From the NCBI GenBank assembly GCA_025934895.1, contig JAICWH010000021.1:1-35738 (forward strand): a stretch of 35,738 nucleotides of DNA. The letters run 5' to 3'. Of the stretch, positions 7,152-24,004 are shown piece by piece (the stretch's first letter is position 1; every line of letters begins with the position of its first letter). The notes beneath the pieces are model-generated. The model saw nothing but the letters and a program-made list of their open reading frames with translations. It did no database searches and was not told the DNA's origin. This stretch comes from Nocardioidaceae bacterium. GTDB lineage: Bacteria > Actinomycetota > Actinomycetes > Propionibacteriales > Nocardioidaceae. Made by a program: the position numbers and the translations under genes.

Positions 7152-9653
7152 TCAGCGCAGGTCGCGCACATAGGTGGTGACCGACCGGGCGTCGGCCATC
7201 CGCCGCTCCCAGGTGGCGCCGAGCGCGACGAGCACTGCCCCGGCAGCGGCGATGAGCACCCAGCGCGGGACCGCGTCCCCGACGTACGGCGCCGCCAGCC
7301 GCAGCAGCAGCACCCCGCCGGCTGCCGCACCCAGCGCGAGCGGCGCCGTCCAGCCCAGCCGGGCACCCACCAGCACCATGGCCAGGCAGCCCAGGCCGAG
7401 CAGCAGCGGCCGCAGGCCGACGGGGTCGACGAGTGCCCACAGCAGGGTGGGGACGAGCGCGAGGGACAGGCCGGGCGCCAGGGCGGCCATCGTGCCCACC
7501 GACCGGTCCCGCCGCAGGCGGTCCAGACCCGCCAGCACCAGTAGCGCCGCCGACGGCAGCGTGTAGGCCTCGGGCGAGGAGACACCGAGGTCCCACAGTC
7601 GCACCCAGCTGGCCGCGGCGAGCAGCGCGCCACCGGCCCACGCCAGCTCTCTCCGGTCGCGCCGCAACGACATGGTGCTGACCACGGCGCCGGACACCGT
7701 CAGGTACACCGCCGTCCACACCTCAGCCTCACCCGCCGGCGCCTGCTGCACGCCTGCCAGACCCAGCGCCAGGGCCGCGACCACGGCGCCCCCCTCGAGA
7801 CCGGTGAGCGGAAGGGTGCTGTCCGCGCAGGCCCAGCGCGCCCGGGTGTACGGCGTGAGCAGCACCAGCCCGCCAAGTGCCAGCAGCCCGATCAGGGTCG
7901 CCCAGACCGGGGCCGCGCCGGCGACGGCGGTCCACGACCAGGACGCGCCGACCACGGTGCCGGCCAGTGCCACACCCCCCGCGGCGGCGACCTCCGGCAC
8001 CCGTGCCCGCACCAGCACCACGCTGGCCAAGCTCGCGGCCGCGCAGAGCAGCACCGCGCTCAGCCGGTCGGCGTGCAGCGACACACCCACGGCCACGGCG
8101 ACGGAGACCGCTGCCGGCAGCAGGGTCAGGGTCGATGCGGTCGCCAGCCACCACGTCGTGAAGGCGCCCGCCAGGGCCACCAGCATGCCCAGGACGAGCC
8201 ACAACGGCACCGGGTAGAGCGTCACCGCGGCGACCACGGACCCCCCCAGGACCGCGGCCCCCACCCGCAGGTCGGCGACCCCGGCAGCACCCCGGCCGAC
8301 CCTCACCCAGGCCCGGGCCAGCACCCAGCCGGTGCCGGCGAGGGCGAGCACGCACAGCGGCAGCAGCCACCCCGCTGGCTGGCGGGCCGGCACGTCCGCG
8401 ACCAACGCGGGCAGCCCGTCACCCGCCGAGCCGGTCCACACCGGACCGGAGGCGTCCACGAGCCGCCCGCCGGCCTCCGCGACCAGCAGGACCGTCACCC
8501 CCAGGACGCCGGTGGCGCCCACCCCCTGGGTGGCCGCGTTCACGAGACCCCAGGGCCGCGGAAGGACCGCGGACGCGACCCCGGTCACGGCAAGCAGGCC
8601 GATCGCGACCAGCGTCAGAGAGGTCGCCTGCAGGCGGGCTGCCGGTGCCAGCAGCGCGACCGTCAGCAGCAGGTGGGTGACCGCCAGCGCCGCCACCCGA
8701 GCCGGGACGAGCGCCCGCCATGGCGCCGCGCAGAGCGCCGCCAGCGCCGCGGCCGCGAGCAGCGGCCAGACCTCCCGATCGACCCACAGCGCGTGCCAGC
8801 CGTGGTCGTCGTCGAAGGCTCGGCCCAGCGCGTAGCCGGTCAGCGACAGCCAGGACGCCGCGGCCACGGCCCACGACCCGATCGCCGCGACGGCCATCCG
8901 TAGCCGACGGGCGGCGAGGCCGAGCGCCGCCGGAAGCAGTGTGGCGAGCACGAGCGCGGGCGCCACCGGGAGTCGGTCCACGCTGGCGACCCCGAGAGTG
9001 CCGAGCCCCGCGCCGATGGCCGCGACCAGCTCGGCGCAGGACAGCGTCGCGACCGCCGTACGACGGGCCGCGACTGCGCCGCCGGAGCCGGTCAGCACCA
9101 GGACCGCACCCAGCAGCCCCAGGAGGTCGGCGCTCGACGGGTCGCCGAACCAGCCGGCTCGGTCCGCGCCGAGCACGTCCAGGGTGAGCAGGCCGTAGGC
9201 GACCAGCGCCAGGGCCTGGGTCCCGGCCCCGAGCCCGCGACGTGCCATCGCGGCCGCGAGGCCACCGGCGACGAGCGTGAAGCCGACCAGCGTCGCGGTC
9301 CGGCCGCCGACGCCGAGCACCGACCAGGTGACGGCGAGGAAGACCAGTGCAGCGACCAGCAGGCAGCCCGCGCCCAGCGCAAGCAGGATCTGCGGGGCCG
9401 ACGTGACACGCAGCGTGCGGCGGGCCGGCACCCGCGGCGAGGCGGGGTACGGCCCAGAAGCGGACCCCGCAGCCACCGGTGCCGGAGCCGCCCGCAGCGA
9501 GATCAGCAGCTCGTCGGCCAGGGTGAGCGTCGTGAACAGCCGCTGAGCCGTCTCACCGCGCAGTGGCAGAGCGCAGGCCGGGCAGGCGACGACACCCGGG
9601 GGGATCGGGGAGCGGCAGTCCGGGCAGCGTCCCGGATCGGCGTAGCGGGTCAT
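7152..9653 (-). CDS. Polytopic membrane protein with N-terminal zinc ribbon (SCO7613 C-terminal-domain type)
   Basis: An 833-residue protein with a small N-terminal zinc ribbon, CPDCRSPIPPGVVACPAC (about residues 9-26), a soluble linker to about residue 85, then a long run of hydrophobic Ala/Leu/Val-rich segments to the C-terminus that would make some 20 or more membrane helices. This matches large uncharacterised actinobacterial membrane proteins sharing the SCO7613 C-terminal region. No transporter signature or catalytic motif is apparent and function is unknown. ATG at 9653 is preferred (GGTGGG just upstream); a GTG at 9674 would add seven residues. It lies 70 bp downstream of the desaturase gene on the same strand and could be read through from it. 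Confidence 0.75.
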   Translation of the reverse strand: MTRYADPGRCPDCRSPIPPGVVACPACALPLRGETAQRLFTTLTLADELLISLRAAPAPVAAGSASGPYPASPRVPARRTLRVTSAPQILLALGAGCLLVAALVFLAVTWSVLGVGGRTATLVGFTLVAGGLAAAMARRGLGAGTQALALVAYGLLTLDVLGADRAGWFGDPSSADLLGLLGAVLVLTGSGGAVAARRTAVATLSCAELVAAIGAGLGTLGVASVDRLPVAPALVLATLLPAALGLAARRLRMAVAAIGSWAVAAASWLSLTGYALGRAFDDDHGWHALWVDREVWPLLAAAALAALCAAPWRALVPARVAALAVTHLLLTVALLAPAARLQATSLTLVAIGLLAVTGVASAVLPRPWGLVNAATQGVGATGVLGVTVLLVAEAGGRLVDASGPVWTGSAGDGLPALVADVPARQPAGWLLPLCVLALAGTGWVLARAWVRVGRGAAGVADLRVGAAVLGGSVVAAVTLYPVPLWLVLGMLVALAGAFTTWWLATASTLTLLPAAVSVAVAVGVSLHADRLSAVLLCAAASLASVVLVRARVPEVAAAGGVALAGTVVGASWSWTAVAGAAPVWATLIGLLALGGLVLLTPYTRARWACADSTLPLTGLEGGAVVAALALGLAGVQQAPAGEAEVWTAVYLTVSGAVVSTMSLRRDRRELAWAGGALLAAASWVRLWDLGVSSPEAYTLPSAALLVLAGLDRLRRDRSVGTMAALAPGLSLALVPTLLWALVDPVGLRPLLLGLGCLAMVLVGARLGWTAPLALGAAAGGVLLLRLAAPYVGDAVPRWVLIAAAGAVLVALGATWERRMADARSVTTYVRDLR

Positions 9654-9698
9654 CCCACCATCAAGCCACCGCACGATCCGCCCCGGGAGCGTTCGCGG

Positions 9699-20796: not shown

Positions 20797-21582
20797 GTGG
20801 GTACGACGGCGGGCGGTCTGGAGGAGGCGCTTGCGGCCACCGAGGAGCGGGTGGACGCCGCGCTGAGCGCCGTGGCGACGGTGACCCGAGAGCTGAAGCG
20901 CGCCAAGACCAGCGTCGGGCGTGGCCAGGTTCGCGACCTGCGTCGAGCCCTCGAGGCGGTCGTCGGGCGGCTGGAGGAGGCCTCGCGGCTCACCGCCGAC
21001 GCGGCCGGGTCGTTCACGTTCGACGAACGGGAGCATCTCGCGACCGGCGGCTACGTCGAGGAGCTGCTGGCGGAGGCCGCGGCGCGAGGCGTCGCCATGT
21101 TCGAGGCGGACGGTCAGCTGCTCTGCTACCCGTCGCTGATCAGGATCGTGGCCTCGGACGCGGCGGTCGAGGTGGACCGTCGGCGGGAGAGGCGGTTGAG
21201 GCCCTCGTTGCTGGTCGCGCTGATGGCGGCCGCCCAGGGCAGACCTCCCCGGTTTCGGCCCGAGCCCTTCCTGGAGAGCCTGGCGAGCGGCTACGACCTG
21301 GTGAGGTCGCGAGAAGCGGCACGGCCGGGGTCGGTCGTCCGGCTGGTCGACATCTGGGGTGTACTGACGCTGCTGCCGGGTGCTCAGCGCGACTATGCGC
21401 GACCCGAGTTCGCCCGGGACCTGTATCTTCTGGACTCCAGCGGCGTCACCACGACGAAGTCCGGCAGGGTGGCGGGTTGGCATGCCAGCAGTGGCACGCG
21501 GGGGACCGGGACGCTCACGACTGTCGCTCGCAGCGGTCAGCAACAGCTCTACTGGGGCATCTCGTTCAAGGACCGCACGTGA
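20797..21582 (+). CDS. Unknown protein, first gene of the BrxC/D-type ATPase operon
   Basis: A 261-residue protein I cannot assign to a named family. Residues about 8-70 are heptad-like and Ala/Glu/Arg-rich (EEALAATEERVDAALSAV onward), predicted coiled coil. The remainder is globular: GQLLCYPSLIRIV at about 108-120, RLRPSLLVALM, RFRPEPFLESL, LVDIWGVLTLLPGA, FARDLYLLDSSGV and a C-terminal QLYWGISFKD. No enzyme motif, zinc site or membrane segment is visible; the YLLDSSGV-TTTKSG region could be a winged-helix wing, which is speculative. GTG 20797 has AGAGGG 7 bp upstream; ATG 20767 is the alternative. Its TGA overlaps the next start by 4 bp (GTGA), so it is an obligate operon partner of the two ATPase-like proteins. 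Confidence 0.7.
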   Translation: MGTTAGGLEEALAATEERVDAALSAVATVTRELKRAKTSVGRGQVRDLRRALEAVVGRLEEASRLTADAAGSFTFDEREHLATGGYVEELLAEAAARGVAMFEADGQLLCYPSLIRIVASDAAVEVDRRRERRLRPSLLVALMAAAQGRPPRFRPEPFLESLASGYDLVRSREAARPGSVVRLVDIWGVLTLLPGAQRDYARPEFARDLYLLDSSGVTTTKSGRVAGWHASSGTRGTGTLTTVARSGQQQLYWGISFKDRT

Positions 21583-22604
21583 CGTCCCCGACGGGAGCGG
21601 CCGGTGGGATCCGCGGCAGCGGGGTGCTCGGCGGCGGGGTCCTGGGCGCCGCTCCCTACGCGGAGTTCCTCGGCGCGGAGTACCTGGGTTCCTACCTGCC
21701 GGCGGGCGGCGGTTCCGTCAAGGTCGTGGTGGCCGGCGACGACGAGGTCGCGGAACGCTTCCAGGCATCCCTGCAGGCCGAGGCGGAGCGGCGCGGGGCG
21801 GTGCTGGTCACGGTGTCCGCGGAGACCACGAAGGTGCACCTGGTGGACCAGGTGTTCTTCGCCGCGGCCCGGCAGGTCGACTGGGGCCGGATCGCAGTGG
21901 CACTCGTGCATGCCGCCTACGACGACATCGCCGTACCCGCCGCTCCCGGGCGGGTGCAGGTGGCGGAGGTGGCAGAGGACCACGACCTTGATGCCCGTGA
22001 GCTGTACCGCAGCGTCCGCCGCCGCCTCGAGCAGAGTCTGCTGGCCGACACCGGCCTGCCCCGGGAGCTGCGCCGGGCCCTGCTCCGGCTGGCGCAGGCA
22101 TGCCTGGGGACCGGCGACGTCGTGGAGCACGAGGCACAGGTCGTGCTGGACTGGCTCCGTGGCGAACCCGTGGGTCTGCGAGAGCTCCGGGCGACGATGA
22201 TCCCCTCACGGATCGGGCGGCACAACGCCCGCAGCATGCTCACCTCGATCGGGCGGTTGCAGCTGCGCGCGGGACAGGCCGGTCTGGTGCTCCAGCTCGA
22301 CCTCGCGCGGCTGGCGGTCGCGCGTCGGCCACCAGTCGAGGAACGAGACGGCGTCTACTACAGCGTCGCTGCGGTCCTCGACGCGCACGAGCTGCTTCGT
22401 CAGCTCATCGACGCGACCGACGACCTCGTGGGGATGCTCGTCCTGGCGGTGATACCGCCCGATCTGATGCGCGATGAGAAGCGGGGCCTGCCCGCCTACA
22501 CGGCGCTGCAGCTGCGGGTCGCCGACGAGGTCCGGGACCGGCGTCGGGCGAACCCCTTCGCGTCCCTGGCCCGACTCGAGGTCCAGCTGGAGGCGATCGG
22601 ATGA
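21579..22604 (+). CDS. Degenerate P-loop protein related to BREX BrxC/BrxD ATPases
   Basis: A 341-residue protein whose C-terminal half (GVYYSVAAVLDAHELLRQ, then VIPPDLMRDEKRGLPAY and VRDRRRANPFASLARL) resembles what I recall of the BREX-type ATP-binding (DUF2791) family. The N-terminal part aligns by eye with the P-loop region of those proteins (GSYLPAGGGSVKVVVAG, about 37-53), but where GxGKT/S is expected it reads GDDEVAERF, so Walker A is lost. The Walker B position reads GLVLQLDLARL with D241 followed by Leu instead of Glu. It is thus probably a non-catalytic partner of the intact ATPase downstream. The GTG overlaps the preceding stop, has AAGGA at 6 bp, and the gene's TGA overlaps the next ATG. 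Confidence 0.72.
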   Translation: MTSPTGAAGGIRGSGVLGGGVLGAAPYAEFLGAEYLGSYLPAGGGSVKVVVAGDDEVAERFQASLQAEAERRGAVLVTVSAETTKVHLVDQVFFAAARQVDWGRIAVALVHAAYDDIAVPAAPGRVQVAEVAEDHDLDARELYRSVRRRLEQSLLADTGLPRELRRALLRLAQACLGTGDVVEHEAQVVLDWLRGEPVGLRELRATMIPSRIGRHNARSMLTSIGRLQLRAGQAGLVLQLDLARLAVARRPPVEERDGVYYSVAAVLDAHELLRQLIDATDDLVGMLVLAVIPPDLMRDEKRGLPAYTALQLRVADEVRDRRRANPFASLARLEVQLEAIG

Positions 22605-23935
22605 CCGGCCGACCACTCGTCCGTGACGTGGCCGGCCAGGACCGGTGGGACGCCGAACGGCTGGCGAAGCGACGGGCGGTCGAGGCGCTGCGCAGCGGGG
22701 TTCCCAATGCCGATGCAGTCAAGGCGCTCGGTTCGGGCCAGAGTGACATCGAGGACCGGTTCACCGGGATGCTGGAGGCCGTCGCCGACCCGAGCATCGG
22801 TCGGCGCGGGCGCGCGTCGATGCTCCTCGGCGCCGGGTTCGGCGAGGGCAAGAGTCATCTGCTGACCCACCTCGGCCACCTGGCCCGAGCGGCGGGGTTC
22901 GTGGTCTCGACCGTGGTGATCAGCAAGGAGACCCCGCTCTACGACCCGGCCAAGGTGCTTCGCGCCGCGGTGGAGTCCGCGGTCGACCCGGCCGGCGCCC
23001 GCGATGTGCTCACCGAGACGGTTGCGGCGCTCGATCCCGACAGCCCTGGGTATGCCGAGCTGCTTCGGTGGCTGCGAGGTCCCGGCCACGACCTCAACGA
23101 GCGGTTCGAGGCCACCCTGCTGCTCCACCAGCGGCTTTCGGGGGCGACCGCTGCGGACGGCGACGAGGACTTCCTCGACACGATCACCAGGTTCTGGTCC
23201 GGCGACCCGCTGCCGATGCCCGACCTGCGCCGACAGCTCAAGGCCGTCGGCGAGGCCAAGACGTTCAGCTTCTCCCCGGTCAGGATCCGCGATCTCGCTC
23301 GGCAGAGGCTGCGCTTCCTGCCCCGGCTGTTGCGCGCCGCCGGATACGCAGGCTGGGTGGTTCTGCTCGACGAGGTCGAGCTGATCGGCCGCTACTCGCT
23401 GCTGCAACGCGGACGCTCCTACGCGGAGCTGGCTCGCTGGCTCGACGGCGACACCGCCGGACCCGGCGACCCCGGCACCCGGGAGCCCTTGGTCGTGGCG
23501 GCGGCGATGACCGACGACTTCGAGACGGCCGTGCTGGTGGGAAAGAACGACCGGGAGGCCCTCCCCGCCCGACTGCGCGCCAAGGAGACCCTGGAGTACG
23601 CCGAGGTCGCGGCTCTCGCCGAGGAGGCGATGACCCACATCGGGCGGGACCTGCTGTCGCTGGCACCACCGGACGACGCGGAGCTGGATCGCGCCTATCG
23701 CATCCTGCGTCAGCTGCACGGAGGCGCCTACGACTGGGACCCGCCCGAGGTGCACGGGCTCGAGCGGCTCGGTGCCACCCGGATGCGCCAGTACGTCCGT
23801 GCCTGGATCAACGAGTGGGACCTGGTCCGCCTCGACCCGGACTACCGGCCCCTGACCGAGGTGGTGGACACGGTCACCGACTACCGGGAACAGCCCGAAC
23901 TCGGCTCGGAGGAGGCCGGCGACACCTCGTCCTGA
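22601..23935 (+). CDS. P-loop ATPase of the BREX BrxC/BrxD (DUF2791) type
   Basis: A 444-residue predicted ATPase. Walker A is intact at GAGFGEGKS (77-85, K84) and Walker B at GWVVLLDEVEL (D257, E258). The surrounding features (SHLLTHLGHLARAAGFVVS, a following helical insertion, then LLDEVELIGRYSLLQRGRSY and VVAAAMTDDF) fit what I recall of BrxD/DUF2791 ATP-binding proteins of type 2 BREX phage-exclusion loci. A Glu-rich tail ends the protein. ATG 22601 overlaps the previous stop (ATGA) and has GGAGG at 7 bp. No BrxX methyltransferase, PglZ phosphatase, BrxHI helicase or TerB-type gene is next to it; the operon is followed by repeat array C. A defence or DNA-management role is inference. Confidence 0.8.
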   Translation: MTGRPLVRDVAGQDRWDAERLAKRRAVEALRSGVPNADAVKALGSGQSDIEDRFTGMLEAVADPSIGRRGRASMLLGAGFGEGKSHLLTHLGHLARAAGFVVSTVVISKETPLYDPAKVLRAAVESAVDPAGARDVLTETVAALDPDSPGYAELLRWLRGPGHDLNERFEATLLLHQRLSGATAADGDEDFLDTITRFWSGDPLPMPDLRRQLKAVGEAKTFSFSPVRIRDLARQRLRFLPRLLRAAGYAGWVVLLDEVELIGRYSLLQRGRSYAELARWLDGDTAGPGDPGTREPLVVAAAMTDDFETAVLVGKNDREALPARLRAKETLEYAEVAALAEEAMTHIGRDLLSLAPPDDAELDRAYRILRQLHGGAYDWDPPEVHGLERLGATRMRQYVRAWINEWDLVRLDPDYRPLTEVVDTVTDYREQPELGSEEAGDTSS

Positions 23936-23948
23936 CGCATGGCGATGC

Positions 23949-24004
23949 CTGCGGACGCGCCGGGTCGACAGGGTTTCGGCCTGCGGACGCGCCGGGTCGG
24001 CAGG
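23949..24004 (+). repeat. 32-bp tandem repeat array C (about 1.75 copies)
   Basis: Two copies beginning CTGCGGACGCGCCGGGTCG at 23949 and 23981, exact 32-bp period, the second truncated at 24004. It starts 13 bp after the stop of the ATPase operon, so it may be in the 3' untranslated region. Sequence is closer to array E (GGGTCG variant) than to arrays A and B (GACTCG variant). Confidence 0.9.

Follow-up and report, generated by a model that had tools for sequence, protein, structure and literature searches.

BrxD and SngB are parts of known defence systems and are still uncharacterised. The Shango system consists of the TerB protein SngA, the ATPase SngB and the helicase SngC (PMC10250203). 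BrxD forms a tight dyad with the helicase BrxHI, which it is proposed to load, and BrxC is a protein of 1200-1300 residues with a C-terminal wHTH and a coiled coil (PMC12839542). Here we describe three genes (A, B and C; together the trio) from a Nocardioidaceae bacterium (assembly GCA_025934895.1, contig JAICWH010000021.1, positions 1 to 35,738 of the forward strand; this whole stretch of 35,738 bp is called the window). No description of the trio was found in the openly searchable literature, a search of which likewise gave no paper with the term DUF2791, and the main text of a survey paper of BREX-related systems mentions neither Shango, TerB nor DUF2791.

Gene structure and the three proteins

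The features of the trio are listed in Table 1. The sequence-only reading had described three genes overlapping by exactly 4 bp twice, with A an unassigned coiled-coil protein, B a P-loop-derived protein with lost Walker motifs and C an intact P-loop ATPase, and all of these descriptions held. Two 26-bp copies, 96% identical and 32 bp apart, are located directly 3' of the C stop codon (window 23947-24004). Elsewhere in the window, an 840-aa ORF on the minus strand (7152-9674) has a coding-like base composition and no Pfam match.

Table 1. Position of genes, junctions, motifs and predicted domains of the trio (window coordinates)
Feature	Position	Strand	Description
Gene A	20797..21582	+	ORF, 261 aa, GTG start
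Gene A, alternative start	ATG 20767	+	271 aa
A residues 8-70	20818..21006	+	Antiparallel two-helix coiled-coil hairpin; AF2 helices 8-42 and 45-70
A residues 155-259	21259..21573	+	Predicted winged-helix-like domain; DSSP of AF2 model, H-H-H then beta strands
A/B junction	21579..21582	+	GTGA, 4-bp overlap
Gene B	21579..22604	+	ORF, 341 aa; BrxC/BrxD superfamily pseudo-ATPase, both Walker motifs lost
B residues 302-313	22482..22517	+	RGLPAYTALQLR, SngB-like arginine motif; R302 and R313 invariant in 56/56
B/C junction	22601..22604	+	ATGA, 4-bp overlap
Gene C	22601..23935	+	ORF, 444 aa; BrxC/BrxD superfamily P-loop ATPase, intact
C Walker A, residues 77-85	22829..22855	+	GAGFGEGKS; G81, G83, K84 and H86 invariant in 53 sequences
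C Walker B, residues 253-258	23357..23374	+	VVLLDE; D257 and E258 invariant in 53 sequences

The product of gene B matched PF10923 (BrxC_BrxD) with 39.1 bits, above the Pfam gathering cut-off of 22.2, and GK[ST] was found in none of the 56 aligned sequences. An AAA+ fold was predicted in its AF2 model (pLDDT 89.5). Foldseek alone gave no match below E 0.001 in the PDB; at a second look the best structure matches were Cdc6 (Z 10.9, 166 aligned) and ORC2 (Z 10.3), with further matches to BrxC (Z 9.8, 208 aligned) and to RdrA and TnsC (Z about 9). Comparison with the congener gave a pN of 0.116 and a pS of 0.37. Because B is under purifying selection despite the loss of its Walker motifs, it evidently functions as a pseudo-ATPase and is not decaying.

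Gene C is present in a single copy in the genome of the window. Its earlier designation as BrxC/BrxD-type was correct at the level of the superfamily (56.3 bits for PF10923, with the same cut-off) but not at that of BrxD itself. The profile score for BrxD was 50 bits, and the NCBIfam equivalog NF033438 has a cut-off of 350 bits, against 51.2 for C and 28.2 for B. An assignment to SngB proper was also rejected, the PADLOC SngB scores being 15.4 (C) and 11.1 bits (B) against 550-565 for the real SngB of loci L017 and L025; in the tree, SngB is very distant from the trio ATPase. The housekeeping ATPase family considered earlier as an alternative for C did not appear in the profile search. PDB sequence searches with the profiles of A, B and C gave no informative match, designed coiled coils being matched by A. 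Of the features of ORC/Cdc6-like AAA+ proteins, the AAA+ fold was found in the predicted model of B and the intact Walker A and Walker B motifs in C.

The motifs of the ATP site are divided between the two proteins: C keeps Walker A and Walker B, which are absent from B, and the motif RG..Y.AL.[LM]R is present in 56/56 sequences of B and in 0/53 of C. The position of C that is motif-aligned with the invariant R313 of B is occupied by R or K (32/21). In real SngB, Walker A, Walker B and the PEFLMDPRRGLFSYPALASRL motif are all on one chain. Since B keeps the SngB-like arginine motif and C the Walker motifs, an ATP site split between B and C is suggested. The arginine finger for C might be supplied by B, in which case B and C would form a complex with the arginine acting in trans.

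For gene A (55 aligned sequences) no family was found in Pfam, NCBIfam or PADLOC. Its AF2 model (pLDDT 90.9) shows the coiled-coil hairpin, a small beta region and, at the C terminus, three helices with beta strands after them, and it gave no significant Foldseek match in the PDB or BFVD. The VIA structure matches were mostly long helical hairpins. The only VIA chain aligned to the C-terminal domain was 8s0e_A of human OCCM, of which residues 771-853 weakly match A residues 156-261 (Z 6.8, rmsd 3.4, 79 aligned). We infer from the model that this domain is winged-helix-like and may be DNA-binding-like.

Distribution and relocation of the trio

Relatives of C were searched for in one genome per species and were found at 63 loci, with identities down to 42%. 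About 55 loci have the order A-B-C on one strand, with no exception among the contigs of sufficient length, and the 4-bp overlaps are present at most of the relatives' junctions. Across the three intact genes, comparison with the congener (L005) gave a dN of 0.10-0.13 and a dS of 0.5-0.7. Because the order is conserved in relatives, mostly with the same 4-bp overlaps, and the dN/dS-type ratios are about 0.17-0.25, the three genes are evidently not a chance arrangement.

All trio loci are apparently from Actinobacteria, and the clades in the tree partly follow taxonomy. Three records (L040, L046 and L065) have the titles proteobacterium and Bifidobacterium breve, but their trios fall within a group of Acidimicrobiia-type sequences; they are probably misnamed metagenome bins. 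No trio was detected in collections of phages, plasmids and viral contigs. It is rare: gene A was present in 3/39 relatives (the genome of the window counted), in 8/148 genomes of one order and in 2/395 other genomes of a phylum sample.

In the congener (L005/L102, 83% identical) none of the genes flanking the trio in the window is near the trio. There, the trio follows smc-ftsY (L102 13390-17970) and interrupts the genus order smc-ftsY-(regulator)-amtB-glnK-glnD, as seen by comparison with L168, L169, L170 and L171. The same site is occupied in three other congeners by a short regulator gene, by amtB or by both, and in the genome of the window ftsY is followed straight by amtB. Only one junction is visible in this empty-site comparison, as the contig of the congener stops 0.2 kb past A. 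A syntenic core set, the other outcome considered by the sequence-only reading, was not what we found: the trio is rare, multi-copy in some genomes and located at unrelated loci in two congeners, and it is therefore evidently not core.

In Acidithrix ferrooxidans (L152, L153, L154 and L060) the start of the trio is present at contig ends in at least three copies with 99-100% identity, as if the trio had been copied as a unit. A role as TnsC-like target selector or self-copying unit, by which the trio would promote its own or a neighbour's transposition, would agree with these near-identical copies and with the resemblance of B to TnsC. We consider it very improbable, however: the operon is without a transposase, B resembles many AAA+ proteins equally, and the Acidithrix copies have about 0.15 kb upstream in common and diverge in the last codons of C, with no visible ends. 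In one genome gene A is present a second time as a truncated copy, with 99% identity over 532 bp (L156 9932-10463 and L157 9601-10131).

Helicases and Shango systems beside the trio

In one clade an XPB/ResIII-like SF2 helicase is located directly 3' of C, and at 13 loci of this clade a helix-turn-helix/sigma-region-4-like protein is encoded directly 5' of A. SNF2 helicases are neighbours of the trio in three separate parts of the tree: divergently upstream (L013/L057), directly downstream (L018/L023, with a GTGA overlap with C in L018 and a 4-bp gap in L023) and downstream, overlapping (L159). The matches of these SNF2 proteins to DpdE/ZorD models cover the helicase core only and do not establish DpdE/ZorD systems. 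A large protein, for which Pfam gives only a weak sigma-region-4/HTH match, is encoded directly 5' of A in one clade (L038 6021-8219, L037 6241-8214 and L155 2168-3982).

Six loci of a single clade have a TerB_N/TerB_C (SngA-like) gene divergently upstream of the trio, and where the contigs are long enough a complete, divergent Shango system was found (SngA 218 bits in L027, SngB 565 in L025 and 550 in L017, SngC 878 in L027). TerB_N was present in 6/45 trio genomes, in five of these beside the trio. Among 201 genomes of Micromonosporaceae, five contained C, seven TerB_N and three both; because a single clade is concerned, this co-occurrence does not independently support a repeated linkage, and the Shango linkage possibly reflects one event. 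Because the trios of many relatives precede an SF2 helicase or adjoin a complete Shango system, a helicase partner is, on gene context, the recurrent feature of the trio.

The trio had been proposed as a possible stand-alone defence or DNA-management cassette. The stand-alone arrangement holds for the lineage of the window, in which no helicase is next to the trio, but not for the relatives just described. A defence-island context was not found in this lineage: among the window proteins scanned there was no defence gene beside the trio and no BREX core component (PglZ, PglX methyltransferase, BrxC or helicase), the latter in agreement with the reported lack of BREX partners. The neighbours are housekeeping genes. 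They comprise the secreted peptidase and the ChaB gene noted earlier, ChaB being the next gene after C, together with purF/purM-like genes, a glutamate-type dehydrogenase, a desaturase, a SpoIIE/histidine-kinase hybrid, an alcohol-dehydrogenase-like gene and a LytR-family gene. Likewise, the nearest relatives (L005-L009) have no helicase or Shango neighbour. Among 116 neighbours of such naked loci, the only conspicuous ones were SNF2 helicases and a number of PIN-domain and AbiEii-like genes; this inspection covered the naked loci alone and is not claimed as enrichment of defence genes. Candidates for a helicase in trans in the genome of the window were generic helicase matches only. An SNF2-like protein (43% over the helicase core) is encoded on another contig (C72), with nothing to link it to the trio.

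Many relatives have an adjoining helicase and the window has none, as would be expected if its trio were left over from a larger system, with the helicase gone and the defence function lost. This we regard as improbable, since A, B and C are all intact and show purifying selection, and since the whole clade of the window, spanning several families, is naked yet intact.

An appreciable probability, well short of even, is given to a helicase-loader module serving the cell's own DNA (repair or replication restart), patchily distributed by horizontal transfer and not involved in defence. The ORC/Cdc6-like fold of B, the linkage to XPB- and SNF2-type helicases, the housekeeping neighbours of the naked lineages and the partial agreement of the tree with taxonomy all speak for such a module. 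Its rarity, its relocation between congeners and its multiple copies per genome would be unusual for housekeeping repair, however, and complete Shango systems adjoin the trio. Because it is rare and moving, and because its relatives adjoin different DNA helicases or complete Shango systems, the trio is probably an undescribed accessory defence or DNA-handling module. A defence role as such would be about as probable as its absence.

Proposed function and comparison with known systems

The explanation that we favour, with a confidence that stops just short of even, is that the trio is a heteromeric BrxD/SngB-like helicase loader or activator, most likely used as accessory defence against invading DNA. 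It would be an AAA+ machine of ORC/Cdc6-like, BrxD/SngB type, in which C binds and hydrolyses ATP, and B, the dead twin, contributes its arginine motif in trans to complete the ATP site and sets the geometry of the complex. A would bridge the complex to DNA by means of its winged-helix-like domain and coiled coil, and the machine would load or activate an SF2 helicase on the target DNA. In relatives this helicase would come from the same operon (XPB-like or SNF2) or, as SngC, from an adjoining Shango system. In the strain of the window any partner would come from elsewhere, for example as an SNF2-type protein encoded on a different contig, or the helicase may be dispensable.

It is conceivable, though rather unlikely, that the trio represents an undescribed anti-invader class, characterised by an obligate pair of an active and a dead AAA+ protein with a DNA-binding adaptor and by exchangeable helicases (XPB-like, SNF2 or those of a neighbouring Shango). 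Two proteins would then share the arginine finger and the Walker site that a BrxD/SngB-like ancestor combined. As a natural variant with a putatively split ATP site, small enough to purify and recurrently joined to different helicases, the trio would make the helicase-loader proposal for BrxD directly testable, including the questions of the subunit in contact with the helicase and of the switch for the ATPase. In Actinobacteria it is also an unlisted module to be sought next to Shango and SNF2 helicases.

The trio resembles the BrxC-BrxB-PglZ group of BREX in the predicted AAA+ fold of B, which aligns to BrxC; in contrast to BrxC, the DNA-binding-like and coiled-coil parts of the trio are located on a separate small protein, A. 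It resembles the BrxD-BrxHI dyad of type 2 BREX in that a BrxD-superfamily AAA+ ATPase adjoins an SF2 helicase in its relatives, but it adds a pseudo-ATPase and an adaptor, and the helicases are XPB-like or SNF2 and not BrxHI. With Shango it shares the pairing, in relatives, of a PF10923-type ATPase with a helicase, as well as the RGL-Y-AL-R motif that B has in common with SngB, and in one clade the complete system lies divergently beside it. The window itself is without a TerB protein and SngC, and no TerB_N (SngA) was found in its genome by the same search that detected this domain in six trio genomes. Unlike Shango, the trio has two ATPase-family subunits with divided motifs and an extra protein, A.
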